DNA from: Lysinibacillus louembei
GTDB lineage: Bacteria; Bacillota; Bacilli; Bacillales_A; Planococcaceae
NCBI RefSeq assembly: GCF_033880585.1
Contig: NZ_CP137624.1
Location: 2,038,001-2,102,000, forward strand
Reading direction: 5' to 3'
DNA: 64,000 bases
In this document: in pieces, positions 14,858 to 62,343 of the stretch
Layout: each line of letters begins with the position of its first letter
How positions within the stretch are numbered: the stretch's first letter is position 1
Made by a program: the position numbers and the translations under genes
Notes under the pieces: generated by a model
The model's input: only the letters and a program-made list of their open reading frames with translations
The model's database searches: none
What the model was told of the DNA's origin: nothing

Positions 14858-14873
14858 CAACATAATTTCATAG

Positions 14874-15028
14874 CTTATCAAGAGAGATTGAGGGATTTGG
14901 CCCGATGACATCTCAGCAACCAGCTATTTGCTAGTATGGTGCTAAATCCAATAGGCGATTGCCTTAAAGATGAGTGGAATACGATTATATGGCAATCGAA
15001 GCTCTCTTTATAAAAAGGGGGCTTTTTT
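14874..15028 (+). promoter_or_regulatory. SAM-I (S-box) riboswitch with terminator
   Basis: The aptamer (14874-14974) has the conserved S-box blocks in order: CTTATCAAGAGAG, GAGGGATTTGGCCCGATGA, CAGCAACC, GGTGCTAAATCC and AAAGATGAG. The outer P1 helix pairs CTTATC with GATGAG. A terminator hairpin with a T-run lies at about 14998-15028. The segment at 14991-14998 (GGCAATCG) can pair with CGATTGCC at 14956-14963, a possible antiterminator. The class is certain by sequence. It should turn the downstream cyclase-family gene off when S-adenosylmethionine is plentiful. Confidence 0.92.
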
Positions 15029-48942: not shown

Positions 48943-49024
48943 AAAAATGTGCAAGCAGCCGTTGTGAGTAGATTTTTAGCGGAATGATTAAATGAGGCTG
49001 GGACAAAACCCATCCCCAAATTCA

Positions 49025-49067
49025 AAAGCCGGTGAAATTTTACAATCAGTAAAATTTCACCGGCTTT
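49025..49067. terminator. 19-bp perfect hairpin inside the IS left end
   Basis: Arms at 49025-49043 and 49049-49067 (AAAGCCGGTGAAATTTTAC and complement) flank five bases. It probably blocks outside transcription from reaching the transposase gene. Confidence 0.75.
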
Positions 49068-49146
49068 CATTTTTGGATTAAAAATAAGGATCTCTTCTGA
49101 TAAAATTAAGTTACCACACAAAATCAATCTAGAAAGAAGGATCCTT

Positions 49147-50868
49147 ATGTTTAAAGATTATAACATGAATCAATTAGTTTTACCGCTGGATGTTGAAATA
49201 AAATTACAAGAACACGATATCGCCTTCTCTATTCATCAATTAGTGGAAAGTATCCCCACAGAAGCTTTCGCTCCTTTTCTGCAACAAACCGGCTGTCCAG
49301 CCTATCACCCACGTATGATGCTCAAGCTCATTTTATGTGGCTATACCCAATCAGCGTTCTCTGGTCGCCGAATTGAAGACCTGACGAAAGATAGCCTTCG
49401 TATGATGTGGCTTGCGCAAGGCTATCAACCAAGTTACCGTACCATCAATCGTTTCCGTGTCCACCCATTGACAAAGGAATTGCTTCGTCAATGTTTCGTG
49501 CAATTCCGTTGTCAACTGGTGAAGGAGGACCTGATTGCGCAAGAAGCCATTTTTATTGACGGCACGAAAATCGAAGCAACTGCGAACAAATTCACCTTTG
49601 TGTGGAAACGTTCGATTGAAAAATATGAAGCGAGTTTGGTGGAAAAATCAAACCAGCTGTATGAGGAATTACTGCAACAACAAATTATACCAGCCATCGA
49701 ACAAGAAGTGGAAACGCAGCTGTCCATCACTGAATTAAAGCAGGTGGCAGAAAAATTAGAAGAAGTCGTAGCCGACTATACAGAAAGAATCGAGCAATCC
49801 GAAAAGGCACAAGAGCGAAAGCAGCTACGAAGTGAACGAAAAACACCGAAACAACAATGGAAGCAAGTAAACGAGTGGATCACCCGCAAACAGAAATATG
49901 AACGAGATTTTGCGATTTTCGGCAAACGGAATAGCTATGCCAAAACAGACCCTGATGCAACTTTTATGCGCATGAAGGATGACTACATGCAAAATGGCCA
50001 ATTAAAAGCGGGCTACAATTTACAAATTGCGACAGAGGGACAGTACACATTGGCTTATGGCATTTATGCGAATCCAACGGATACGAAAACGTTGATTCCC
50101 TTCTTGGATGAAATCGAGAGACGCTATTTTCAATTGCCACAACATATCGTAGCCGATGCCGGCTATGGTAGTGAGCCAAACTATGAAGATGTACGAAACA
50201 ACCGAAAGTGTGAACCTGTGATTCCCTATACGCATTATCGAAAAGAGCAAAGCAAAAAATACCAACAAGACCCCTTCCGAACAAGTAACTGGATGTATGA
50301 TGAAGAGTTGGATACCTATATCTGTCCATACCAGCAAAAAGTAACGTTCCGCTATGAGTCAACACAAGAAGACAAAGAAGGATTCCAACGAACGTTTCGT
50401 ATCTATGAATGCGAAGACTGTACCGGTTGTCCATTTCGAGAGAAATGTACGAAAGCCCAAGAAGGCAAGTCACGGAAAATCAAGGTAAATGAAAACTGGG
50501 AACAACAAAAAGCATATGTACGTACAAAGCTTTCAGAAGCCAAAGCAGGAACTCTCTACCGTCAACGAAAAGTAGATGTAGAACCAGTTTTTGGCTGTCT
50601 GAAGGCTAATTTAGGTTTTACTCGCTTTTCGGTTCGTGGTCAATCGAAGGTGGAAAACGAAATCGGCTTCGCTTTGATGGCCGTGAATCTACGAAAGTAT
50701 AGGTGGAAGAGGAAATCTTCTTCCAGTTCTTCCTTTCACACATCAAAAAATCGAAATCACCTGATGCGATTTCGATTTTTTGTATGGACTAGAACTATTT
50801 ATGTCCCAGCCTCAACGTCACGTTTTGTAAGGGAGTTTAGTATAATCGATTTTTACATAACAAGCTGA
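49147..50868 (+). CDS. IS1182 family transposase
   Basis: The 573-residue DDE transposase has an N-terminal DUF772-type DNA-binding domain (about 15-100, ending PSYRTINRFR). The catalytic core has IFIDGTKIEATANK (first Asp, about 140) and HIVADAGYGSEPNYE (second Asp, about 335). The C-terminal DDE_Tnp_1-like part follows, with VEPVFGCLKANLGFTRFSVRG (Glu, about 480) and a zinc-ribbon-like CEDCTGCPFREKC (about 424). The reading frame runs past the right inverted repeat at 50813 into flanking DNA, so the last 18 residues are not native to the element. It looks active. Confidence 0.92.
   Translation: MFKDYNMNQLVLPLDVEIKLQEHDIAFSIHQLVESIPTEAFAPFLQQTGCPAYHPRMMLKLILCGYTQSAFSGRRIEDLTKDSLRMMWLAQGYQPSYRTINRFRVHPLTKELLRQCFVQFRCQLVKEDLIAQEAIFIDGTKIEATANKFTFVWKRSIEKYEASLVEKSNQLYEELLQQQIIPAIEQEVETQLSITELKQVAEKLEEVVADYTERIEQSEKAQERKQLRSERKTPKQQWKQVNEWITRKQKYERDFAIFGKRNSYAKTDPDATFMRMKDDYMQNGQLKAGYNLQIATEGQYTLAYGIYANPTDTKTLIPFLDEIERRYFQLPQHIVADAGYGSEPNYEDVRNNRKCEPVIPYTHYRKEQSKKYQQDPFRTSNWMYDEELDTYICPYQQKVTFRYESTQEDKEGFQRTFRIYECEDCTGCPFREKCTKAQEGKSRKIKVNENWEQQKAYVRTKLSEAKAGTLYRQRKVDVEPVFGCLKANLGFTRFSVRGQSKVENEIGFALMAVNLRKYRWKRKSSSSSSFHTSKNRNHLMRFRFFVWTRTIYVPASTSRFVREFSIIDFYITS
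50745..50781. terminator. Hairpin inside the 3' end of the transposase gene
   Basis: AAAAAATCGAAATC and GATTTCGATTTTTT form a perfect 14-base stem ending in six T. It looks like a terminator placed within the coding end of the gene. Confidence 0.65.
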
Positions 50869-51143
50869 GGATGCTCGTAACGCACATAGGAGACACCACA
50901 ATTGAAGGCAGCCTCCATTGCGGTTTTTGATGCTTCCTTAGCGAATGGGTGACTTGCATCGACAACACAAGTAACTTCGTGCTCTGTAATCATATCAACC
51001 ATTTCATGGACAGATAAAGAATTCATTAAAAGAGTCCCAGCTAAACAAGTGTTTTTTGTTATGACACGATGACCTTGCTGCTGCAATGTAATGGCTAATT
51101 CACGTGTTTCATTTATTCCTTCTATAAATAAAATCATCTGCAC
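50853..51143 (-). pseudogene. cobK: Truncated precorrin-6A reductase (CobK/CbiJ), N-terminal 96 residues
   Basis: CobK reduces precorrin-6A in cobalamin biosynthesis. The remaining 96 residues have the N-terminal half of the family: MILFIEGINETRELA, the VVDASHPFAKEAS motif (about 62) and VSYVRYEHPQ (about 84). The family is normally about 250 residues. The frame ends at 50853, 40 bases before the IS1182 element's right end, and the C-terminal half is not found beyond the element. The gene still has a ribosome site (GGAGGGTG) and lies behind a cobalamin riboswitch. Confidence 0.85.
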
Positions 51144-51160
51144 CCTCCTTATACTAAACT

Positions 51161-51199
51161 AAAAAAAGCTGTATCTCTAAAGTAAAGAGATACAGGCTA
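51161..51199 (-). terminator. Riboswitch-controlled terminator before cobK
   Basis: On the minus strand, CCTGTATCTC pairs with GAGATACAG around TTTACTTTA, followed by a run of seven T. It lies between the riboswitch aptamer and the cobK stump. Confidence 0.8.
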
Positions 51200-51302
51200 T
51201 GAGATTTCATGTTGAAAAAGCGTGTATATGCTAATGTATACACATTTTTGTACATTCGATGTCTCGCCTATACTTCTCCCTCCGAAAAGCAAGTGACCAA
51301 TT

Positions 51303-51470
51303 AAATAAGCAGGTTTCCTGGCTCGTGCTTCGTTTTACTTTCACATCTTCCCATTCCAGTGAACAGTGATTGGCGTGATTTCATCTGCACTTACAGTAGC
51401 GGGGGCTGCATTAGCTTTTCACTAATTTCCCTTTTACCTCAGCATTGCTAAGCACTCATTTAACCATCAT
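51303..51470 (-). promoter_or_regulatory. Cobalamin riboswitch upstream of cobK stump
   Basis: On the minus strand the aptamer shows AAAAGGGAA, AATGCAGCCCCCGCTACTGTAAG (B12 box region), and GCCAGGAAACCTGCTT near its 3' end, matching the known consensus. With the terminator at 51161-51199 it forms a complete off-switch for a B12 synthesis operon now cut off after its first gene. Confidence 0.9.
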
Positions 51471-51553
51471 ATTCGATTATGTTTTTACAATAACATATTT
51501 CCCCAAGATTTCAATAGTTTTTTGTCTCCATTCAGCAAGCTAAACCGTTTGCA

Positions 51554-52249
51554 CTACTGTAATAGCCCGTATTTCGTTTTGATGCGCTCCAGCTTCTCAC
51601 GTATAGGCTTTTCTAATAATAATAAAAAGATAACATTTGATATTGCGTAAACAATCATAAAGGGCACAGCGGAGGTTAAGGCAACAATGTAAGCACTCCA
51701 GCTAAATACCCCGTACATCGAGATTGTTCCCCAAATGTCCATACCGAAAGAGAAAAAAATACCTGCAAACATACCAAATAGAATTAAAGGGATTTTTTTA
51801 TGCATGATGCCAGTTTTCCCTAGTAGCCCTGCAATAAAGCCAATCATTCCCCACATAAACATTTGGAATGGCGTCCAAGGCCCTTGTCCGAAAAACATAT
51901 TGGATACTAGGGCGGAAATAGCGCCTGTTAAAAAGCCTGCCTCTGCACCAAGTGAAAAGCCTGTGATAGCAGTAATTGCTGCAACAGGCTTGAAGCCTGG
52001 TGTCACAACAAACAATGCGCGCCCGGCTACAGAAATGGCGGACATAACAGCAATCACTAAAATTTCACGTGGCTGTGGCTTACGGCGTTCAAATGATAGG
52101 AAGAACGGGACAGATGCTAAAATGATAATAACAATCGAAATAAAATAATATTTTCTATCAGCAAATAGCGTAATACCTGCATATAAAGTAAGTGGGATAG
52201 CAATGAAAATAACAAGGAGTGAAATAGCTAAACGCATGTTTTTTGACAT
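51554..52249 (-). CDS. ECF transporter S component (CbrT-like, predicted cobalamin)
   Basis: The 231-residue protein has six membrane segments and a cytoplasmic, basic C-terminus. The loop SAISVAGRALFVVTPGFKPVAAITAITGFSLGAEAGFLTGAISALVSN (about 73-120, containing the AxxxA-type motif for docking to the T subunit) is typical of ECF S components. It is the last gene of an operon behind a cobalamin riboswitch and overlaps the ATPase gene, so B12 or a corrinoid precursor is the likely cargo. This fits the predicted CbrT group, but the substrate is inferred from the regulation. Confidence 0.8.
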   Translation of the reverse strand: MSKNMRLAISLLVIFIAIPLTLYAGITLFADRKYYFISIVIIILASVPFFLSFERRKPQPREILVIAVMSAISVAGRALFVVTPGFKPVAAITAITGFSLGAEAGFLTGAISALVSNMFFGQGPWTPFQMFMWGMIGFIAGLLGKTGIMHKKIPLILFGMFAGIFFSFGMDIWGTISMYGVFSWSAYIVALTSAVPFMIVYAISNVIFLLLLEKPIREKLERIKTKYGLLQ

Positions 52250-53874
52250 AGTGTAACGACATCCTCACATGTAATGGCATTGCTCAATTGTTCCCGTGAT
52301 ATGCGGTGTGCTGCTGTTGTATAAAAGCTATTGCCACTATAAAATGCACGTGGCTCATCTTCTGACACGATGCTGCCATCGAAAAACAGGGCACATCTGC
52401 TGCTATATTGCGCTGAAAATTCAATATCATGTGTCACCATAATAATCGTCATCCCTTTTGCCTGCAAATTGTTCAAGATGTCTGCAAGCTCATTCTTTGC
52501 CTGTGCATCAAGTCCCTTTGTTGGCTCGTCCAGTAACAAAATTTTTGGTTCGATTAACAACAGCTTAGCGAGCGCTAGCTTTTGCTGCTCACCACCACTT
52601 AAATCATATGGATGGCGCTTGACTAGATGCGTCAATTGGAATAATTGAATCGTTTCCTGCATTTTTTCTTTCGTTATTTTATGTAAATGAGCCATATCCT
52701 CAAGCTCTTGCTGCACGGTTTTTTGGACAAATAATGTTTTAGGGTCCTGTGGCAGCAATGTTAAATAGTGTTGATATAATTGCTTATTACTATAGCTTTT
52801 TAATGGCTTATTAAATAAAGTGACCTTGCCACGATAAGGCTTTTGAAGCCCTGCTAAAATGGACAATACCGTGGATTTACCAGTTCCATTGCCACCGAGT
52901 ATTGTTAAAAACTCCTGCTCCTTTACTTGTAAATTGAAATGATAGATGATATCCTGCCCGTTTTTTTCATAGCGAAAGGCAATATCCCTTGCCTCCAATA
53001 CAATATTTTCTTTATTTTTCTGTATGATGGGAGGCAGCGTGATTGCGGGAACTTGTTGCTCCTTCAGCCAGCGCTGCCCTTCACGAATGGTCAAAGGAAT
53101 CAGTCCTTCACCATTCAATAAATGAAAAATTTTTGTGGCTGTCGGTAAAGCTGTAATCATTGCATGATTTGCTGGCAATGTCTTTAAAATTTCGCGTGGG
53201 GAACCATCAAATAAAATTGTTCCTTTATCCATTATCAGCACACGATCAGCGAGTGGAAGTACCTCCTCAAGGCGATGCTCAATCAAAATAATTGTAATGC
53301 CAAGCTCTTTGTTTAAGCGGTGCAATGTTTGAATAAATTCCAATGCTGCAATCGGGTCAAGCTGTGATGTCGGCTCGTCTAGCAGTAGTAATTTTGGCTG
53401 CATAACCATAATAGAGGCTAAATTTAATAATTGCTTTTGTCCGCCAGAAAGCTCAGTTGTCTTTTGATGGAACCATTTTTGAATGCCGAAAAAGTTAGCC
53501 ATTTCCGCTACTCTACGGCGAATTGTCGCTGAATTCACACCAAGACTTTCTAAGCCAAAGGCAAGCTCATGCCATACTTTATCTGTAACAATTTGATTAT
53601 CAGGATTTTGAAAAACATAGCCAATATTAGCTGCTGCCACTTCTGCATCGAGCTGCTCTAAATCACAGCCTTGATAAAAAATATGTCCTGTCCTGTCACC
53701 ATATGGGCATAGCTCACGCTTAAAATGACGTAGCAACGTGCTTTTGCCACAGCCAGATTGTCCGATGAATGCAATGAATTCACCTTGCTGAATCGTTAAA
53801 TCAATATTTTTTAATACGGGCTCTATCTCATTTGGATATGTAAAGCTTACATTGTCGATTTTAACGATCGCCAT
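52228..53874 (-). CDS. ECF transporter double ATP-binding protein (EcfA-EcfA' fusion)
   Basis: The 548-residue protein contains two ABC ATPase domains. The first has GQSGCGKST (about 38), LSGGQKQLLNLA (about 142) and LLLLDEPTSQLD; the second has GGNGTGKST (about 328), LSGGEQQKLALAK (about 425) and ILLLDEPTKGLD. It powers the ECF importer made with the adjacent T and S proteins (CbrU-like). It overlaps the T gene by 28 bases and the S gene by 22, so synthesis of the three is coupled. Confidence 0.9.
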   Translation of the reverse strand: MAIVKIDNVSFTYPNEIEPVLKNIDLTIQQGEFIAFIGQSGCGKSTLLRHFKRELCPYGDRTGHIFYQGCDLEQLDAEVAAANIGYVFQNPDNQIVTDKVWHELAFGLESLGVNSATIRRRVAEMANFFGIQKWFHQKTTELSGGQKQLLNLASIMVMQPKLLLLDEPTSQLDPIAALEFIQTLHRLNKELGITIILIEHRLEEVLPLADRVLIMDKGTILFDGSPREILKTLPANHAMITALPTATKIFHLLNGEGLIPLTIREGQRWLKEQQVPAITLPPIIQKNKENIVLEARDIAFRYEKNGQDIIYHFNLQVKEQEFLTILGGNGTGKSTVLSILAGLQKPYRGKVTLFNKPLKSYSNKQLYQHYLTLLPQDPKTLFVQKTVQQELEDMAHLHKITKEKMQETIQLFQLTHLVKRHPYDLSGGEQQKLALAKLLLIEPKILLLDEPTKGLDAQAKNELADILNNLQAKGMTIIMVTHDIEFSAQYSSRCALFFDGSIVSEDEPRAFYSGNSFYTTAAHRISREQLSNAITCEDVVTLCQKTCV

Positions 53875-54737
53875 TTGAACGCCTCCCTTATTTCGATAAT
53901 GAGTGGGATAGAGAGCAGCAGCAAGTAGCTACTGTAAAATAAAATGCTCCCAATATCCCATTTGAGTGCACTAAAGGTTGGATAAAAATAAAAGGATGTC
54001 GTACCAAGAAAGCCAGCAGCTAAATTCGTAAGAAAAAGCACTAAAATTATTGCTAAAACGACGCCATCACGACGTTCAAAGACAAACAATGAGAAGGCTG
54101 ATCGCTTCTTAATGCCATAGCCACGAGCCTTCATAGAATCCGCTGTATCAATCGCATTGTCCAATGCCCAAGTAATTAAAATAGATAGGATGCGTACGAT
54201 ACATTTAATTCGATGCCAAAGGGAACCAGCTGTATAATCCATCCCGATTACTTTTTGTGCTTGGACAATTTGTGCTAGCTGATGACGAAAGCGTGGCACT
54301 AAGCGCAATGAAATGGACAATGTAAGTGATAGGGCTGGCGATACCTTGCCGAATAAATAAATAAATTTATCGGATGTCATCACAGTGTTGTAGCTGCTAA
54401 ACCATAGCATTACTGCTACAAGCATTGTGGCAATGGCAAGTCCATACATAATGGCTTCTACAGTAACGGCATTGCCGTTTAAATAAAATAATTTAAGCTG
54501 TCCATTATGACTAATTAAAGGATTAATCATCGCCATTAGGAAAAACAGTGGTACATATAGCTTCCAATCCTTAAAAAACAATTGTCTACGCAATGCAATA
54601 TTTAAGCTGATTGCTGAAAAAATAGTGATAACTAAGTACACGGGGTGCATAAAAAACATGGATAAGCCAATTGCTACGACAAAAAAGGAAAAAAGCACGA
54701 TTGGGTGAAATGTTTCAAAGGCCTTCATTTTATTCAC
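53847..54737 (-). CDS. ECF transporter transmembrane protein (EcfT)
   Basis: The 296-residue T component has five to six membrane segments and the two coupling-helix motifs with A-R-G: the DSMKARGYG segment (about 202-210) is the clear one. It connects the S component to the ATPases (CbrV-like). An ATG at 54728 is the alternative start behind GCAGGTG. It overlaps the lipoprotein gene by 8 bases, tying the lipoprotein to the transporter. Confidence 0.85.
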   Translation of the reverse strand: MNKMKAFETFHPIVLFSFFVVAIGLSMFFMHPVYLVITIFSAISLNIALRRQLFFKDWKLYVPLFFLMAMINPLISHNGQLKLFYLNGNAVTVEAIMYGLAIATMLVAVMLWFSSYNTVMTSDKFIYLFGKVSPALSLTLSISLRLVPRFRHQLAQIVQAQKVIGMDYTAGSLWHRIKCIVRILSILITWALDNAIDTADSMKARGYGIKKRSAFSLFVFERRDGVVLAIILVLFLTNLAAGFLGTTSFYFYPTFSALKWDIGSILFYSSYLLLLSIPLIIEIREAFKWRSLKSTM

Positions 54738-55554
54738 CTGCCCAATAATGTCCTAGGTCGCGACCTAAATCGACTGTATAATGCCATTCGATGACGTCGC
54801 CATCTTGTAAAACATACTGACTGCATCCGTAATTAGGGAATACACCGTTGACGTTATACATCCACCCACTTAATTCACCTGCACTAAATTCATATAGATG
54901 GTTGATACCTTCTATATAAACACTACTATAAATGTTTTCATTTGCTCCCTGATATTCCATTTGGATTTTATGCTCCTTTGTAGCACGCTGTAATATATCC
55001 CAAACGGTATCATTTTCAGATAACAGCTCATAGGTCGTCGGCTTTAAAATAACACCGCTTTTCGGCACATATTTTTCGCTTTGCAGAGCTGGGTCTAGTA
55101 AATCCCAATGCTGAAGTAATGTATCAACACGAATTGCAATCGTTACAGTGCGCTTTTGTGGTGCAGGCTCCTGCGTTTTTTCTACTTTTTTTTCTTTAGG
55201 CTTTTCAGCTGGTTGTTTCGTTTGGTTGTTTGGCTCTATTTTTGTACTTGGTGTTTTTGTAACTTCCTGTTTTTTTTCTGTTACCGGTTTTTCTTCCTTT
55301 TGCGTTTCAGGCTGTGTTTTTTGTTCCTTTACTTGCTCTTTAGGCTGTTCCTCTTTTGCAGGTTCCTTGACCTCTTCCTGTTCAGCAGGTTCAGGCTCAA
55401 TCGGCTCTGGTTCTTCTGGCTGCGAAGGGGAGGGAGGCGTAATGCTTTGCTCCTCCTCCTGCATTTTTTCAAATTCCTCAACGGATTGAAGGCCACAAGC
55501 AGCTAAAAATATAACGACTAGTGTTAGCAATAAAACATGTACAGTTTTTTTCAT
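54730..55554 (-). CDS. DUF4430 (transcobalamin C-terminal-like) lipoprotein
   Basis: The 274-residue protein is a lipoprotein: the lipobox LAAC puts Cys at about residue 20. A long Pro/Glu/Lys/Gln-rich linker (about 25-140) acts as a spacer through the wall. The C-terminal domain (about 145-274) is DUF4430, with LSGWMYNVNGVFPNYGCSQYVLQDGDVIEWHYTVDLG at its end. This fold matches the C-terminal half of human intrinsic factor and transcobalamin. It probably hands cobalamin from the surface proteins to the ECF transporter next door. It follows the toroid-SLH gene by 1 base. Confidence 0.85.
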   Translation of the reverse strand: MKKTVHVLLLTLVVIFLAACGLQSVEEFEKMQEEEQSITPPSPSQPEEPEPIEPEPAEQEEVKEPAKEEQPKEQVKEQKTQPETQKEEKPVTEKKQEVTKTPSTKIEPNNQTKQPAEKPKEKKVEKTQEPAPQKRTVTIAIRVDTLLQHWDLLDPALQSEKYVPKSGVILKPTTYELLSENDTVWDILQRATKEHKIQMEYQGANENIYSSVYIEGINHLYEFSAGELSGWMYNVNGVFPNYGCSQYVLQDGDVIEWHYTVDLGRDLGHYWAGE

Positions 55555-55555
55555 T

Positions 55556-57094
55556 TTATTGCTCCACTACCTTTAAGAAATTGACATACATTTTTGCTGC
55601 ATGTGCACGGGTAATGGAATTAGTAGGATGAAATGAACCATCTGCGCCCTGTGCAATGTCAAAATTATATAAGAATGTAATAGCTTGCTGTGATTTCTCA
55701 GATAATTGTGCAATATCCTTTAAAGGTGCTATTTGAGCAGCTGTATAAGCTTTGCCTGTTTGATGTGCATAGGCATTTGCTAGCATAACCGCTAACTCCT
55801 CACGTGAAATAGGGGAGGATGGTGAAAATTTATTAGATTTTCCTACTAATAAATTAGCCTCATAAGCTGCTGCAATTTCTCGTTTTGTTTCATCATTGTA
55901 TGCGCTAATATCTGTAAATGGTGTGCTGCTAGTGCTTGTTAATTGAAGCGCACGCACTAAAATGGATACAGCTTGTACACGTGTTAAGCTGTTGTTTGGT
56001 TTAAAGGTATTGTCCTCATAGCCTTTTAATAAGCCCCTTGCAACAGCTGCTTCGATATCAGCCTTTGCCCAATGTGATTGCACATCCTTAAAGCTCACTT
56101 TTGAAGTAGGGGGGGCAGGCTTGTTTGGTTGCTCAGGTGTAGATGGCTGTTTTTTTGTATCTGACATATCGTACAGCTTCGTTTTGCCTGCAACTAGTCG
56201 ATTATACGCTGCGAGTGTATAAGCTGCCTGCTCGGTTGCCATCCCGTTTGCTGCTGTTTCAGTTAATGCATGCTTGAAGCCACCATCCTTTGCATTATAA
56301 AAGGAAAAGAAGCTATTGAATGTGCTGTTAAAGCGTTGATCCTTGCTGACATCGATGTTTAAGCTGGAAAGTGCTGTAATAACTTGTGCGGCACTCTCGA
56401 TATTGGTAACACCCCAGCTTTGATAGCTGCCGTTTGCCTGTTGTAATTTTTGCAATGTGTTCAAAGCTTTATCGATAGATGTCTTTACATCTTGTCGATC
56501 TTTATATGTAGAAAGTGCTTGAAGTGCCATTGCTGTCATATCAGGGTCTGCCTTTGTTCCAGATAAATCCCAGCCACCATCAGGCAATTGTTTAGCTAAT
56601 ATATGCTGAATGAGCTTTTCACGTGTCGTCGTAGCGGTTTTAGGTAGCTCAAAACCCCATGTATCTAAAGCAATTAAAGCAAAGTAGGCGCCATTCGAAC
56701 CTTGCCATACGACTTTATCAAAATCGCTTAGCTTTTCTACTAAATTATAGCCACCTACATTGGTAGGGTCTTTGCCGATTGCTGTTAGAGCAATAATTAA
56801 ACGTGAGTACTCAGTGTACTTACGGCTGTGTAATTCACCTTTAACAGATTGGACATGCTTGACAACATTGTCATAATATTTATCATAGTAATCTTTCGGA
56901 ACCTTGTATTCACCACGAGCAAGTGCAATAATAAACCACTCATTGCCAAACGTAGGGTTCGGTGCTTTCGTTACCATGTAATTTCCAGTTGTTTGATAAG
57001 CTTCTATAGCTGAAACATTTTGAGCAGAAACAGGTGATACAATTAATATTAAGGCATATAGCATCACGAGAAGCATGGATAATTTTTGCTTCAT
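55556..57094 (-). CDS. Secreted alpha/alpha-toroid protein with three SLH domains
   Basis: The 512-residue protein has a signal peptide (about 1-24, ending VSA), a prenyltransferase/squalene cyclase-like alpha/alpha toroid (about 28-310) and three SLH domains (about 333-512). The toroid includes repeats such as GANGAYFALIALDTWGFELP, QLPDGGWDLSGTKADPDMTAMALQALS and NIESAAQVITALSSL, as in the N-terminal domain of eukaryotic cobalamin carriers. It lacks a DUF4430 domain, so the missing half may be the lipoprotein encoded next. It is about 50-60% similar by eye to the toroid of the 1311-residue protein. Confidence 0.85.
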   Translation of the reverse strand: MKQKLSMLLVMLYALILIVSPVSAQNVSAIEAYQTTGNYMVTKAPNPTFGNEWFIIALARGEYKVPKDYYDKYYDNVVKHVQSVKGELHSRKYTEYSRLIIALTAIGKDPTNVGGYNLVEKLSDFDKVVWQGSNGAYFALIALDTWGFELPKTATTTREKLIQHILAKQLPDGGWDLSGTKADPDMTAMALQALSTYKDRQDVKTSIDKALNTLQKLQQANGSYQSWGVTNIESAAQVITALSSLNIDVSKDQRFNSTFNSFFSFYNAKDGGFKHALTETAANGMATEQAAYTLAAYNRLVAGKTKLYDMSDTKKQPSTPEQPNKPAPPTSKVSFKDVQSHWAKADIEAAVARGLLKGYEDNTFKPNNSLTRVQAVSILVRALQLTSTSSTPFTDISAYNDETKREIAAAYEANLLVGKSNKFSPSSPISREELAVMLANAYAHQTGKAYTAAQIAPLKDIAQLSEKSQQAITFLYNFDIAQGADGSFHPTNSITRAHAAKMYVNFLKVVEQ

Positions 57095-57120
57095 TATATA
57101 ACCTCCATTCTACGAAAAGG

Positions 57121-57155
57121 TACTAACCCAAATGCAAGAAGCCTTTGGGTTAGTA
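57121..57155 (-). terminator. Intercistronic hairpin between the two SLH genes
   Basis: TACTAACCCAAA and TTTGGGTTAGTA pair perfectly. No T-run follows directly, so it may act in mRNA processing or partial termination within the B12 operon. Confidence 0.6.
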
Positions 57156-57162
57156 TAGAAAT

Positions 57163-60100
57163 TTACATCATCTCTGCAATAATTAACGTACGTTTTAAAA
57201 TTTTAGCTGTTTGTCCACGCGTTAATGAAGCACCTGGATCAAAGGAGCCATCCTCTTTACCTGTCATAATATCAAGGCTGTTTAATAGCTCAATATACGG
57301 TAAGTATTCCGGGCTAATATTGCTGCTATCAGTGAAATCAACTTGGCCGTTAGCTTTTACATCTACCTTGACATAATCTAAAATACGAGCCATAAAGGCA
57401 GCAGCTTGTTGGCGTGTAATTGGTGCCTCTGGATTGAATGTAGAAGCAGTTGTTCCTTTCGTAATGCCCGCTTCAAATAATGCTTGAATATCCGACTCAT
57501 ACCATTTACCTTGTGTATCGCTAAATGGATTTTCACCAGTTGACTGTAAGCCAAGTGAGCGACTAATTAAAGCGGCAAATTGTGCACGTGTAATTGGTTT
57601 ATTCGGCTCAAACGTTTCTGATGTTGTGCCTTGAATGACGAGTCGGTTCGCTAAAAACTCAATTTCATCTTTGTTCGCTAAATTTGCAATATCATTAAAG
57701 GTTGCTGAACGCTCTGCAATAACAAATGTGCCGCTTGTTTTAGTAAATACGACAATTTCCCCGTTCACTACTTGATGTGGAACAGGCTTATATGCACCGC
57801 CGACAAGCTGTAAAACAACACTGTTAGCTTTTACATTCTTAGCAGGTAAAGTTACTTTTAAATATTCATTACCTAAAGAAATTGGCTTGACTCTACCTTG
57901 CGCTGTTTCAATACCAAATGAAATAGTAAATTGTTTATTGTCGATATCTTTTGTAACAGAGGCGCTAATTTGCTCACCATCTGCTAATGTCATTGTATTG
58001 AATGTGGACATTGGGATTTCTAATTTGAAATTATCATCACTTTGAATAATAAGCTTTTGAATATTTTTCTCACGATATTGTTGAAGGTTTTCTTGTGTAA
58101 TCAGTGCTTTATTTTCATTACCTTCAATTGTAATTTCAACGACTGTCTTATTTTGTGGCTGCTCTGTATCTGTCTTAGGTACAGTATGTTCTGCAATACA
58201 TTGCTCATCGCCTTCAGGGCATAGCTTTGCAATACACTCTGTATCACCCTCGGCACATGTAGCATCACCTGCTGCGCCACCAGCACCATTTTCGATACCA
58301 TCGACATAGCCGCCAGTATCTTTCCCTAAATCTATTGTATAAACCCATTCAACAACATCGTTCGGAGATAGAACGTAGCTTGCTGCTGAATAAGAAGGGA
58401 AGACACCATTTACACGATACATCCAACCACTTAAAGGACCACGATCAAATTCATAAAGCCCAGCGATCCCATCAATATAGACACCAAGCTCCGTTTGGCG
58501 ATAACTTAATGCAATCCCATTGTCATCTGTTGCTCTTTTTAAAGCATCAAAGGCTGTTTCACCAGCAAATACTTTTGTTGCTGTTGGCTTTAACGGTACT
58601 TCAGATGATGAAATTCGGATGGATACCGTGGCATAGCCAATTGGTTCTTTGTCTGATGGAACGGAAGGCTGATTTCCATTGTTGTCAGGAGGGGAAGGCT
58701 CCTCGTCATCATCACCATCGCCATCCTCAGGTGTAGAAGGTCGATCTTTTGTATCGGACATATCATAAAGCGCTGTTTGACCGCTTAGTAGACGGTTGTA
58801 GGCTGCTAATGAGTAACCGACCTGTACTGTTGCCATGCCATTGGCTTTATTTTGGCTATAGCTATGTTTAAAGCCGCCATCGTCTGATTGGTATGTCATA
58901 ATATTAGAAATCACTTTGTTAAAACGTTCATCTTTATTTACATCAATTCCTAAGCTTACAAGTGCTGTTACAACTTGAGCAGCACTTTCAGGGTTTTCAA
59001 CCCCTTTGACTACAGAATAATCAGCAGATTTATAGCCACCATTAGGTAATTGCATTGCTGCTAGCTTGTCTACTGCTCGATTAATTACTTCTTGTACTTT
59101 CGTATTACTTTGATAATATGGTGCAAGTGCTTGTAGCGTCATCCCTGTTACGTCTGCGTCATCATTACTACCACTTAATGCAAAGCCCCCAGCGCCTTTA
59201 ATTTCCTTCGATAAAATATAATCTATTAATTTATCTCGTGTTGTAGTTGCTGTTTCAGGCAAATCGAATGCCCAAGTATCAAGGGCAATCAATGAATAAA
59301 CTGCGGAGTTTATGCCAGGACTTATAGCAAAATTATAATCTGTTAACTTTTCTACCAGATTGTAACCACCAACATCTCTAGGATCTTTGCCAATTGCAGT
59401 AAGTGCAATAATTACTCGAGACCAATCTGTTGATTGGCTACCTATTTTCCCATTTGTTGTTTTTACATGTTTTACGAGATTGCTATAATATTGCTCATAA
59501 TAATCTTTATATTTATCAGAATTGTCACCACGAGCTAATGTTAAAATTGTCCATTCTGACCCATAAGTAGGTATAGCTGAGCTTGATGATAAATAATTGG
59601 CAACAGCATGATAGGCATCGACTGTAGGAGGTTGCAATTCTATTAAACGTTTTTGTAAAGCCTCTAATTTTGCGTAGTTTGTGACACGAGTTTTAAACTC
59701 ATCTAGCAATTGGTCATAGGCCTGTTGTGCCTCAATTACTTTTGGTCGGTCAGCCCAAACTAAGGCTTCTAAAGATGGTAATGCATTAATCTTTGTGATG
59801 ACTTGGTTAATATCACCTTCTGCATTTATTATTTGCTCTTTTTTTATAAGATCATCATAGTTTGAAACATTATTTTGTAAACTTTTTGGATTTAAACTAT
59901 TGTAGGCAGCCTTTGCGGTAGCTAATTGCTCTTTTGCTGATGTGCTATCTATATCAATAGCGTCAATTAATAGCTCTACATATCGAACTTCTTTATCAAA
60001 TAGTTCTTGTTTATTACTTACGCTATTATTATTTCGATATGTTGTTGGTAGAATATTATATTTTTTTCTTGCATAATCTAGCTGCTCTTTTATTGTCGTA

Positions 60101-61098
60101 TTAATTGTTAGCTCTTCTATTTTAGGAAGCGCATTGATAGCCAGGTAAGCATATTTAACTTCTTTAGCTATCAAATTGTCATTAAATGCAAGGATCTCTG
60201 AATCTGTAACTTTCCTATAGCCAGAAGTTTTAATCAAGGTACTATATTTTTCACGAATAGTATCTAATTTACTATTTACTTCCTCACTTAAAGAAGTCAT
60301 TTCCTCAGGAGTAGGTAAATCATTGTTAGGGTCCTGCATATACAATTTGAAATAGGTAATTTCTTTTTCTAATAACATAGTGAAGTAAGGTAGTTTACCT
60401 GCTGTTATCAATAAAGTACGAGCAGGCGCTTTTACTTTACTATCTAGCTCTCTTGCTTGCAGTAAGAGCTGATATGTTGTCTCATCAGCACTTGTAATTG
60501 GCGGAAGGGCTAGGATAAAATCTATAGCTTCGCGAGCTTCAGGGGAAATAACATATGCTGTGATTGCTTTAGTATTAGTACCTAATTTAGCAGTAATGAT
60601 TGTTTCGCCAATTGCCTTAGCTGTTACTAATCCATTATCAACAGTTGCAACTCCAGAATTACTTGAAGTCCATTCAATTGATGCACTGTCCTCTGTTGTT
60701 GAAGTAGTTGCTATCAGTTCAAATGTCTCAGCTACTTGTAATAGTAACGGTTCTTCTATATTTAATTGAATATCGCTAACTGACAGAGGAGAGATCTCCA
60801 TAAATGGAGTAATTGTTGCATCATTTAATTGTATTGGCTGTTCTAGTTCAGCTAATTCAAATGCATGATCCTGCTCTGTTGAATCTTCTAATTTTTTTTC
60901 ATTATCAGGTTCTGTCGTATTATCTTGTTTAGTTGAATCATCAAGATGCTGTTCACTAATATTATGAGCATTCTCACTATTCAGCGCGCCTGTTTCTCCT
61001 TCAAAATGCTGTGCCTTGATTACACTAGCCGGAGAGAATAGCGATAACACTAAAATAAAGACAAGCGCTATATGTAGCTGTTTTTTCCATATAGCCAT
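57163..61098 (-). CDS. Giant surface protein: Big2, helical repeats, alpha/alpha toroid, DUF4430 and three SLH domains
   Basis: The 1311-residue protein has a signal peptide (about 1-29), an acidic stretch and a Big2-type Ig domain (about 105-180, with IEWTSSNSGVATVDNGLVTAKAIGETIITA). A helical spacer (about 185-495) leads to an alpha/alpha toroid (about 500-775, with GGFALSGSNDDADVTGMTLQALAPY and PESAAQVVTALVSLGID). After a Pro/Asp linker come a DUF4430 domain (about 815-920, with LSGWMYRVNGVFPSY and VVEWVYTIDLGKD), a Cys-containing loop, a beta region and three SLH domains (about 1130-1308). Toroid plus DUF4430 is the domain order of eukaryotic transcobalamin. It is probably a surface cobalamin-binding protein. 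Confidence 0.87.
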   Translation of the reverse strand: MAIWKKQLHIALVFILVLSLFSPASVIKAQHFEGETGALNSENAHNISEQHLDDSTKQDNTTEPDNEKKLEDSTEQDHAFELAELEQPIQLNDATITPFMEISPLSVSDIQLNIEEPLLLQVAETFELIATTSTTEDSASIEWTSSNSGVATVDNGLVTAKAIGETIITAKLGTNTKAITAYVISPEAREAIDFILALPPITSADETTYQLLLQARELDSKVKAPARTLLITAGKLPYFTMLLEKEITYFKLYMQDPNNDLPTPEEMTSLSEEVNSKLDTIREKYSTLIKTSGYRKVTDSEILAFNDNLIAKEVKYAYLAINALPKIEELTINTTIKEQLDYARKKYNILPTTYRNNNSVSNKQELFDKEVRYVELLIDAIDIDSTSAKEQLATAKAAYNSLNPKSLQNNVSNYDDLIKKEQIINAEGDINQVITKINALPSLEALVWADRPKVIEAQQAYDQLLDEFKTRVTNYAKLEALQKRLIELQPPTVDAYHAVANYLSSSSAIPTYGSEWTILTLARGDNSDKYKDYYEQYYSNLVKHVKTTNGKIGSQSTDWSRVIIALTAIGKDPRDVGGYNLVEKLTDYNFAISPGINSAVYSLIALDTWAFDLPETATTTRDKLIDYILSKEIKGAGGFALSGSNDDADVTGMTLQALAPYYQSNTKVQEVINRAVDKLAAMQLPNGGYKSADYSVVKGVENPESAAQVVTALVSLGIDVNKDERFNKVISNIMTYQSDDGGFKHSYSQNKANGMATVQVGYSLAAYNRLLSGQTALYDMSDTKDRPSTPEDGDGDDDEEPSPPDNNGNQPSVPSDKEPIGYATVSIRISSSEVPLKPTATKVFAGETAFDALKRATDDNGIALSYRQTELGVYIDGIAGLYEFDRGPLSGWMYRVNGVFPSYSAASYVLSPNDVVEWVYTIDLGKDTGGYVDGIENGAGGAAGDATCAEGDTECIAKLCPEGDEQCIAEHTVPKTDTEQPQNKTVVEITIEGNENKALITQENLQQYREKNIQKLIIQSDDNFKLEIPMSTFNTMTLADGEQISASVTKDIDNKQFTISFGIETAQGRVKPISLGNEYLKVTLPAKNVKANSVVLQLVGGAYKPVPHQVVNGEIVVFTKTSGTFVIAERSATFNDIANLANKDEIEFLANRLVIQGTTSETFEPNKPITRAQFAALISRSLGLQSTGENPFSDTQGKWYESDIQALFEAGITKGTTASTFNPEAPITRQQAAAFMARILDYVKVDVKANGQVDFTDSSNISPEYLPYIELLNSLDIMTGKEDGSFDPGASLTRGQTAKILKRTLIIAEMM

Positions 61099-61127
61099 TA
61101 AAAAGCCACTCCTTTATAAATAGTTAA

Positions 61128-61163
61128 ATACTGATAAGGGGAAATGCTTCCTCTTATCAGTAT
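61128..61163 (-). terminator. Intercistronic hairpin after the first DUF4430 gene
   Basis: ATACTGATAAG and CTTATCAGTAT, extended by GGAA and TTCC, form a long stem in the 77-base gap. It may reduce expression of the downstream genes relative to the first. Confidence 0.6.
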
Positions 61164-61175
61164 CAATTTACTTCC

Positions 61176-61895
61176 TTATTTCACTTCTACTTCAAGCGGC
61201 TCACTTGCTGAGCTACCGAATAAAGCATTGGCAGAGGCAGTAATGGTAATCGTGCCTGCTTGCGCTTGACCTGCAAATGTAATCACAACTTGTTGGTCAG
61301 TATTTACAGTAACAGACTGCGCTGTTAATGCCGTTGTACCAGTATTAATTGTCCAGTTTGCTAAATTAGTGACACCTGGTGTTACAAATAAATCACCAGT
61401 TAAATCTACTGTAACAGTAGGATTGTTATCATTTATGGCAACTGTACTTGTTGTTTGTAATTTAGCCCATGTAGTGTAATAAATATGAACTACATCATCA
61501 GGCTCTAATACGTAATCTGCCAAGCCATCATTAGGGCTGATGTTATTTACTGTATACACCCAGCCATCCCAACCGTTTAAGCTACCTGCAGCACGTCCAT
61601 CAATTGATTGGAGATATGGGCCATATTGAGTAGAAACTACTACATAAGGAATACCCTCGTTATCTAACACTTGTTCTACAAGCTCTAGTGCTGTTGTTCC
61701 TTCTGCAACTGTTGCTGTCGTTAACCCTAAAATTTCATCATCCAAGCCATCAATCGATAATTCAACATCAAACGTTGTTGATTGTAGCTCCTGACTTACA
61801 GGCTGTAATACTGCTGCACTAGCTGTTGGTGATACGAGCGCAAATGCTAAAAGCAATGCAAACGCTAAATGCCACCATTTTTTGAATTGAACCAT
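61176..61895 (-). CDS. Secreted DUF4430 protein, first gene of the B12-regulated operon
   Basis: The 239-residue protein has a signal peptide (about 1-27, ending ASA) and a DUF4430 domain (about 42-150). The domain shows TALELVEQVLDNEGIPYVV, then LNGWDGWVYTVNNISPNDGLADYVLEPDDVVHIYY. A C-terminal Ig-like beta domain (about 155-239) follows. No anchor is seen, so it may be released or bind other surface proteins, like a soluble B12-binding haptocorrin-type carrier. It starts behind AGGAGG and is the gene nearest the riboswitch. Confidence 0.82.
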   Translation of the reverse strand: MVQFKKWWHLAFALLLAFALVSPTASAAVLQPVSQELQSTTFDVELSIDGLDDEILGLTTATVAEGTTALELVEQVLDNEGIPYVVVSTQYGPYLQSIDGRAAGSLNGWDGWVYTVNNISPNDGLADYVLEPDDVVHIYYTTWAKLQTTSTVAINDNNPTVTVDLTGDLFVTPGVTNLANWTINTGTTALTAQSVTVNTDQQVVITFAGQAQAGTITITASANALFGSSASEPLEVEVK

Positions 61896-61953
61896 TTACA
61901 AAACCTCCTAAATTTTTTATTTCGTGAATGTTCTTGCAATTAACTCGAAAATA

Positions 61954-61987
61954 AAAAGATGCTTCACCGAAAAGGGAAGCATCTTTT
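61954..61987 (-). terminator. Riboswitch-controlled terminator before the B12 uptake operon
   Basis: On the minus strand AAAAGATGCTTC pairs with GAAGCATCTTTT, followed by TATTTT. It lies between the aptamer and the first gene, as expected for a transcriptional off-switch. Confidence 0.8.
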
Positions 61988-62080
61988 AGGAAAACAGAAA
62001 AAGGCGCAAAAACATTGTTAGCCTGTCCGCTTTGCCGTAAGTTCTCCTAGCTTCCGAAGAGAGTTAATACGATAAAATAA

Positions 62081-62275
62081 AGGCAGGTCTCCTGGCTTGT
62101 GTATCCTAAAATCAGCACCTTCCCATCTACTAGAGGCATTTTTCCTCGTTTGACAGTGGTATTACGCTGTAGTCATTTACACTTACAGTTGCGGAAACAG
62201 CTTCGGCTTTGCACCGAATTCCCTATTAAGCTCTGTGAAAGAGCACCTTTATTCTGCAATCATTATCCACTTGAG
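62081..62275 (-). promoter_or_regulatory. Cobalamin riboswitch of the surface-protein/ECF operon
   Basis: On the minus strand the aptamer contains AATAGGGAATTCGGTGCAAAGCC-type entry blocks (kept short here), GCTGTTTCCGCAACTGTAAGTG (B12 box) and AAGCCAGGAGACCTGCCT at 62098-62081. These match the cobalamin riboswitch consensus closely. It should switch off the seven-gene operon when B12 is abundant. Confidence 0.92.
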
Positions 62276-62343
62276 GAAAGTATAGCACAAAGTAAGCAAT
62301 TAAAAAATAAAGAAAAAGAGATTTCAAGTAGAAACATAGTAAA

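Follow-up and report, generated by a model that had tools for sequence, protein, structure and literature searches.

An operon of Lysinibacillus louembei behind a cobalamin riboswitch, predicted to serve the capture and import of cobalamin, encodes putative surface proteins with the domains of animal cobalamin carriers

Animal transcobalamin, gastric intrinsic factor and haptocorrin share one build, in which an alpha/alpha toroid is followed by a beta-grasp domain. Bacterial proteins related to these carriers were described by Burroughs et al. (2007; PMC1796856), who reported toroids fused to either side of the transcobalamin-like beta-grasp domain SLBB, accompanied by an export signal and additional Ig-like domains; the operons that encode them also hold CbiO and CbiQ genes and, in many cases, another paralogue. 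According to the same account, key enzymes of B12 synthesis are missing from most of the hosts, a role in scavenging is proposed, and the carriers were suggested to have been transferred to animals from low-GC Gram-positive bacteria (PMC1796856). Here we analyse an operon on the minus strand of a 64,000-nucleotide stretch of the Lysinibacillus louembei genome (contig NZ_CP137624.1, positions 2,038,001 to 2,102,000; hereafter the window), in which it occupies positions 51554-61895. Its second gene encodes a 1311-residue protein that combines a toroid with DUF4430, a transcobalamin-like beta-grasp domain, and with SLH surface anchors. The products of this operon very probably form a system for the capture and import of cobalamin or a related corrinoid, and we predict that they bind B12.

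Scavenging of B12 is the most likely function because a carrier-like build and a B12-type importer are brought together in one cluster under predicted B12 control. The operon encodes, in this order, a DUF4430 protein, the 1311-residue protein, a toroid protein with SLH repeats, a DUF4430 lipoprotein, EcfT, the fused ATPase EcfAA' and the S component of an energy-coupling factor (ECF) importer (Table 1). CbiO/CbiQ-like genes and a further carrier paralogue are thereby present in a single operon, inside which all three DUF4430 matches found by searching the genome with the Pfam model are located. An RF00174 cobalamin riboswitch aptamer lies upstream of the first gene, together with an expression platform from which B12 control is predicted: the hairpin and U run between aptamer and gene would be the terminator expected of an off-switch. 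A simple terminator scan gave no report of a hairpin behind this first riboswitch.

In its transcobalamin-like beta-grasp domain, predicted export signal, toroid fusion, Ig-like domain, CbiO/CbiQ-like operon and paralogue, the locus resembles the SLBB proteins described in 2007 (PMC1796856). It departs from that description in encoding four carrier-type proteins in one operon, including a toroid protein that lacks DUF4430, and in the variable presence of the carriers among close relatives. The terms SLH, S-layer and riboswitch have no match in the main text of that paper, figures and supplements aside (PMC1796856). The core idea has thus been known since 2007, and the present operon is a richer and well-equipped example; what it adds, and what the literature searched did not yield, is anchoring by SLH repeats, a riboswitch, a CbrT-like subunit bearing a conserved extension, and carriers that are present or absent within one species. 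That literature, the coverage of which was incomplete, yielded no work on whether bacterial proteins with toroid and DUF4430 bind B12, and the retrieved portions of two further articles (PMC3331988, PMC4350170) contained nothing on bacterial carriers.

A first reading of the window, made from the sequence only, had proposed that one 1311-residue protein carries the domains of intrinsic factor together with SLH anchors, and much of this architecture was confirmed. The protein is encoded by a single open reading frame (ORF) of 1311 codons. An AlphaFold model of its 445-residue core, calculated from 26 aligned sequences (mean predicted local distance difference test score, pLDDT, of 85.2), contains the toroid at approximately residues 486-785, proposed at about 500-775, and a beta-grasp DUF4430 domain at approximately 816-925, proposed at about 815-920 and matched by Pfam at 846-921. 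Modelled alone, the toroid reached a mean pLDDT of 93.0. Pfam by itself is insufficient to recognise the toroid of this protein, which scores below the cut-offs of SQHop_cyclase_C (21.2 bits against 26.1) and Prenyltrans (19.6 bits against 26.5); the 512-residue paralogue exceeds both. The additional Big2 domain and the three SLH repeats are borne out by Pfam, the GWMYRVNG segment is present within DUF4430 at residues 891-898, and of the 300-residue helical spacer the presence, as a stretch blank in Pfam (residues 183-485), could be upheld. Surface location of the carriers is predicted from the SLH repeats and from signal-like N-termini and a lipobox recognised by eye. The combination of toroid and DUF4430 is not a chance one, because genes for both are found again, variously arranged, at 17 loci in 12 genomes of relatives and at least one of the two halves was matched in 105 of 398 genomes sampled across the phylum. 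In the genome counts for our phylum and family samples, either half was sufficient for a genome to be scored.

Comparison of the two-domain model with the PDB by Foldseek returned transcobalamin, intrinsic factor and haptocorrin at all of ranks 1-15 (E 3.3e-12 to 2e-9), with terpene cyclases starting at rank 16 (E 6.7e-6); as in the animal carriers, an N-terminal alpha/alpha toroid precedes a C-terminal beta-grasp domain. VIA-align placed squalene-hopene cyclase at the top for the same model, over the toroid only (Z 23.9, 263 residues), and aligned human intrinsic factor with a Z of 19.6 over 343 residues at a root-mean-square deviation (rmsd) of 9.7. In the profile-profile comparison with five animal carriers by hhalign, the proposed kinship held for the two-domain core (95.9% over 323 columns) and for DUF4430 alone (93.4%, E 2.5e-7) and did not extend to the toroid alone (50%). 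On the strength of the 93.4% match, we consider with fair confidence that the DUF4430 half is homologous to the beta-grasp domain of the animal carriers. This half also matches the bacterial beta-grasp structure 3u7z (RUMGNA_00854 of Ruminococcus gnavus; TM-score on target 0.76), which we take to be a DUF4430 protein itself and which, known here from its row in the list of fold matches, differs in being titled a putative metal binding protein. In the two-domain hhalign alignment Asp649, which is invariant, and Met653 stand opposite Asp176 and Met180 of human transcobalamin, of which Asp176 presumably touches cobalamin. His173 is named as a cobalamin-binding residue in the retrieved text of PMC4947154, and a list of cobalamin-contacting residues was not found in that of PMC11107200.

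The second line of evidence is the importer. A profile built from 20 rows of S component sequences had as its best PDB match 6fnp, the ECF-CbrT complex (E 4.4e-16), with profile positions 67-236 on chain residues 8-177, and the next match was 4hzu_S at E 0.0025. CbrT of this complex, from Lactobacillus delbrueckii, has been shown to transport B12 (PMC5997447), and cobalamin transport is accordingly the predicted function of the S component for which CbrT is the nearest solved relative. The two S components are homologous over 170 residues and both systems have EcfT and two ATPase domains, so that the energising module of the present operon, with EcfT and the fused EcfAA', is complete. Unlike ECF-CbrT (PMC5997447), the system described here has its own ECF genes within the operon, adjoining surface carriers and approximately 60 extra conserved residues at the N-terminus of the S component. 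These residues lie outside the 6fnp match and form two hydrophobic stretches with a D-R-K-Y-like segment between them, which is kept with few changes in 20 aligned relatives; as a conjecture, the lipoprotein might dock there. In several Ruminococcus-type genomes (loci L066, L071, L072, L077, L078 and others), the S component and the double ECF ATPase are fused in one ORF of roughly 800-960 residues.

The metabolism of the host includes several uses for the cofactor, as the genome encodes MetH, methylmalonyl-CoA mutase, IcmF and a B12-binding radical SAM protein. Its tetrapyrrole methylase matches number three, comprising a uroporphyrinogen-III methyltransferase (siroheme-type CobA), a MazG fusion and a third (in L140) that is of RsmI type by eye, compared with eight in each of two other genomes of the genus, G455 and G002. 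Since these methylases are too few, corrin ring synthesis is unlikely, and in all likelihood the host depends on corrinoids that it takes up and remodels. CobU, CobS and adenosyltransferases are present, CobU and one adenosyltransferase falling under the NCBIfam cut-offs and over those of Pfam. Five cobalamin riboswitches were found in the genome, situated before the carrier operon, before a 94-residue ORF that follows it, before metE, before a cluster encoding a BtuF-like protein, a FecCD permease, an ABC-CbiZ protein and an adenosyltransferase, and before a cluster for an adenosyltransferase, CobU and CobS. The ABC-CbiZ protein is an ABC ATPase fused to the adenosylcobinamide amidohydrolase CbiZ (L041 4804-6258, minus strand), and metE (L039 6054-8501, minus strand) encodes the B12-independent methionine synthase, which is present alongside MetH. 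The window also contains an S-adenosylmethionine riboswitch at 14872-14976 on the plus strand (82.8 bits).

Table 1. Positions in the window of the carrier operon genes, the domains of the 1311-residue protein and adjoining elements
Feature	Position	Strand	Evidence and remarks
Cobalamin riboswitch aptamer	62065..62265	-	RF00174, 112.2 bits (gathering score 31.5); about 170 nucleotides upstream of first operon gene
Hairpin and U run, past the riboswitch and ahead of the first gene	61954..61987	-	Stem in the fold predicted for 61925-62015, which as a whole has a z-score of -6.7
DUF4430 secreted protein, single domain, 239 residues	61176..61895	-	Pfam PF14478, 45.3 bits; signal-like start by eye
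Toroid and DUF4430 protein, 1311 residues	57163..61098	-	SLH anchors; signal-like start by eye
Big_2 Ig-like domain, residues 120-177	60568..60741	-	Pfam, 30 bits (cut-off 22.8)
Spacer, residues 183-485	59644..60552	-	No Pfam match
Alpha/alpha toroid, residues 486-785	58744..59643	-	AlphaFold pLDDT 93; terpene cyclases and transcobalamin among the fold matches
DUF4430 (transcobalamin-like beta-grasp), residues 846-921	58336..58563	-	Pfam PF14478, 64.6 bits (cut-off 23.8); C-terminal domain of transcobalamin by hhalign, 93.4%
Three SLH repeats, residues 1132-1304	57187..57705	-	Pfam, 122.6 bits; S-layer protein Sap, E 4.7e-14
Toroid and three SLH repeats without DUF4430, 512 residues	55556..57094	-	Pfam
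DUF4430 lipoprotein, 274 residues	54730..55554	-	Pfam, 68.6 bits; lipobox LAAC by eye
EcfT (CbiQ family)	53847..54737	-	Pfam PF02361, 32 bits
EcfAA', fused double ECF ATPase	52228..53874	-	TIGR04520, 387 bits, two stretches
ECF S component, CbrT-like, about 60 extra N-terminal residues	51554..52249	-	20-row profile to 6fnp, E 4.4e-16
Second cobalamin riboswitch, downstream of operon	51291..51474	-	RF00174, 117.3 bits; own terminator-like hairpin at 51169-51195
94-residue ORF like N-terminal half of CobK/CbiJ	50856..51137	-	PF02571, 66.8 bits, profile 2-100 of 234; behind second riboswitch, neighbour outside carrier operon

Similar loci are spread among the relatives of L. louembei and beyond. 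When its own genome and those of 60 relatives were searched, 13 of the 61 matched, its own included. From the 12 matching relatives 17 loci were taken, some of them incomplete at the ends of the fetched sequence, and every one contains at least one cobalamin riboswitch; an EcfT-like protein is encoded at 14, an EcfA-like protein at 15, an EcfS-like protein at 10 and a DUF4430-only ORF at 14. Loci with the full set begin with one or more surface carriers, followed by the DUF4430 lipoprotein, EcfT, EcfA and EcfS in that order. In a wider set of 80 named loci, the best of 550 confirmed places, all are from Bacillota by title (Paenibacillus, Cohnella, Lysinibacillus, Ruminococcus, Lachnospiraceae and others), and other phyla may be represented among the remaining places. 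Within this set 62 loci have an EcfT-like ORF. A riboswitch model that uses sequence without base pairs, and whose weak matches are rough, matched 52 of the 80, in 48 cases within 900 nucleotides upstream of a toroid or DUF4430 ORF; the tally draws on 57 of 58 model rows, the omitted row being a further match at a locus already counted. One toroid match, in genome G038 (C1:872664-873539, locus L013), contains an internal TAG stop.

Within the genus, carriers and corrin synthesis were mutually exclusive in the five genomes examined. Carriers occur in the genome of the window and in two others (G003 and G001), all three of which have just three tetrapyrrole methylase matches, and the two genomes with eight such matches, G002 and G455, encode full-length CobK and gave no carrier match. 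G002 represents an empty site: its sequence matches up to window position 62329 and, after about 63 nucleotides, matches again from 51500, and the operon and first riboswitch are therefore missing as one block. G455 belongs to the same species as the window and encodes an S component and an EcfAA' that are 99.1% and 96.7% identical to those described here. Its ecfT is interrupted by an insertion (L166 from about 13226), by eye a transposase, at which the contig ends; this assembly consists of about 80 contigs and the loss of carriers from it rests on the whole-genome search.

The half-length CobK-like ORF behind the second riboswitch occurs in all five genus genomes (83-97% identity), in G455 and G002 alongside the full-length gene and in the genome of the window despite the lack of an evident corrin ring pathway. 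The ratio of nonsynonymous to synonymous substitution rates (dN/dS) between two species is 0.067, with a dS of 1.45 that approaches saturation and varies from gene to gene. The ORF has the appearance of a protein that is being conserved for some new function. We considered and rejected the idea that an insertion sequence (IS) element had cut a CobK gene here, since the 94-residue ORF has its own stop, at the same place in G003 and G002, and the IS element lies behind it. This insertion (about 48994-50812) carries an IS1182-family transposase (49147-50868, plus strand; 425.8 bits) and is missing from the same site of G455 (L166), where the flanking matches are about 27 nucleotides apart.

In the mechanism that we propose for cobalamin capture, low cellular B12 would allow the operon to be read through its riboswitch. 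SLH repeats would fix the 1311-residue protein in the wall, where, in the manner of transcobalamin, it would clasp B12 between its toroid and DUF4430 domains. The protein with toroid and SLH repeats and both single-DUF4430 proteins would serve as half-carriers that hold B12 or hand it over. At the membrane, the lipoprotein may then pass B12 to the S component that resembles CbrT, with import powered by EcfT and EcfAA', and the imported cofactor would be used by MetH, methylmalonyl-CoA mutase and IcmF. Half-carriers are plausible because the alpha and beta domains of human transcobalamin, when made apart, join only upon addition of cobalamin (PMC5599065). A more elaborate version, which we put forward as speculative and rather unlikely as a whole, is a relay from wall to membrane, in which the SLH-held full carrier, the toroid half and the membrane-bound or free beta-grasp halves would close round B12 in trans and hand it over through the extra N-terminal module of the S component; the relay would be swapped against corrin synthesis within one species, and animal intrinsic factor and transcobalamin would descend from such a system.

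Several results weigh against the interpretation of these proteins as cobalamin carriers. The rmsd between the model and the carriers in Foldseek is large, approximately 11-13 Å, and the relative orientation of the two domains is therefore not reliably modelled. With hmmsearch, a DUF4430 profile made from 25 domains retrieved none of the PDB carriers at E up to 10, returning chance-like matches only, and the single DUF4430 domain of the window matched rat transcobalamin only, at E 0.093. For the toroid alone hmmsearch found squalene-hopene cyclase at E 8.2e-18 but none of the carriers within a limit of E 1, Foldseek gave drimenyl diphosphate synthase an E of 6.9e-6 compared with 4.7e-5 for transcobalamin, and VIA aligned it with squalene-hopene cyclase (2sqc) at Z 24.0 over 263 residues and an rmsd of 3.0, in keeping with an alpha/alpha barrel fold; the absence of carriers from the 50 matches listed by VIA proves nothing alone. 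By itself the toroid half is thus nearer to terpene cyclases than to the carriers, or at least as close. The core (residues 486-930) is devoid of cysteine, unlike the five animal carriers, in which Cys98, Cys147, Cys187 and Cys249 are invariant. Because the genome also encodes the BtuF-like, FecCD-BtuC-like and ABC-CbiZ importer cluster, the carrier operon is not the sole route for B12. Finally, the exclusion of carriers by corrin synthesis does not extend to the family: among 151 genomes, 12 have both, 29 carriers only, 43 full CobK only and 67 neither (Fisher p 0.34), where full CobK denotes the 55 genomes with a near-full-length match, three more having half only and one a weak match below the cut-off. 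We have accordingly dropped the exclusion as a general rule and regard it as a pattern of the genus.

The kinship of the toroid with cyclases raises the alternative that it is a degenerate or active terpene-cyclase-like enzyme, with DUF4430 serving some other ligand and B12 control being merely regulatory, which we consider very improbable. The sequence-only reading had set the carriers against true terpene cyclases with catalytic Asp motifs, and of these two features a cyclase match at least as close, by sequence and fold, was found for the toroid alone and the complete DxDD motif was not. Its third position is Asp in all 32 toroids listed and its first in 22, but the fourth is Asp in none of them, with M, I, V, S or T in its place (27 of the 32 were taken from the toroid alignment and the other five were added for this count; the DUF4430 alignment took 25 of the 43 stretches listed). 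Squalene-hopene cyclase has a second barrel, which is missing here, and the proteins look exported and bear SLH repeats in an operon with a CbrT-like importer. A terpene cyclase function was rejected on account of the fourth Asp, and the likeness is retained as a remark on ancestry. We know of no role for toroid or DUF4430 surface proteins in cobalt uptake, and an importer of cobalt instead of cobalamin is likewise very improbable, even with an EcfT that matches the Pfam family CbiQ, 'cobalt transport protein'. Inferred cobalt importers behind B12 riboswitches have been described (PMC2667541), but the S component matches CbrT, Pfam reported no CbiM match and no corrin ring pathway that would use the cobalt is evident; this candidate was rejected since the S component is CbrT-like. 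Capture of another corrinoid or of a precursor (cobinamide, pseudo-B12 or cobyric acid), or of several, overlaps with cobalamin scavenging and is a credible though not a probable alternative: CobU, CobS, the adenosyltransferases and the ABC ATPase-CbiZ fusion could remodel incomplete or foreign corrinoids, the riboswitch indicates a B12-related function without telling which corrinoid, and the beta domain of human transcobalamin also binds cobinamide (PMC5599065). That the nearest solved S component, CbrT, is a B12 transporter argues weakly the other way, as the relevant passage states that it 'not only transports Cbl' (PMC5997447).

A separate issue, which leaves the proposed role in B12 capture unaffected, is whether toroid and DUF4430 were joined once or independently in bacteria and in animals. 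The carrier layout claimed for this bacterial protein stands as a two-domain fold match (Foldseek ranks 1-15), and its order turned out not to be special: among 76 distinct pairs of neighbouring toroid and DUF4430 domains in single ORFs, some of which may hold SLH repeats between the domains, 33 are toroid-first and 43 DUF4430-first (two identical pairs of 78 were dropped; locus L059 is the G001 contig). Toroid-first is therefore one of several bacterial orders, and that animals share it is a weak argument about origin. As to whether the halves travelled together, their pairwise distances correlate (r 0.38, the largest of 1000 shuffles being 0.23), also when either order is taken separately (0.55 and 0.53, against largest shuffles of 0.44 and 0.27), and the nearest neighbour has the same order for 56 of the 76 toroids and 36 of the 76 DUF4430 domains. 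In these bacterial pairs, the halves have therefore partly travelled together and partly been reshuffled. Independent joining, with the likeness residing in the parts, is a serious possibility that falls somewhat short of an even chance; the mixed order, the low share of same-order neighbours for DUF4430 compared with the toroid and the toroid-to-carrier profile match of just 50% speak for it, and the correlated distances, taken from trees of bacterial sequences alone, against it.

Among systems that resemble this operon in their working, BtuG of gut Bacteroides is a beta-propeller found on the surface as a lipoprotein. There B12 is captured at the surface ahead of a membrane importer (PMC6143338), in a Gram-negative host and with no homology claimed to the proteins described here. 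If the predicted B12 binding is true, Gram-positive bacteria would possess, in carriers of this kind, an equivalent of BtuG in Bacteroides, and the origin suggested in 2007 for human intrinsic factor could be tested at the bench. The presence and absence of the operon among very close relatives provides a natural control, as one species has carriers and few tetrapyrrole methylases in one genome and corrin genes and a broken operon in another.

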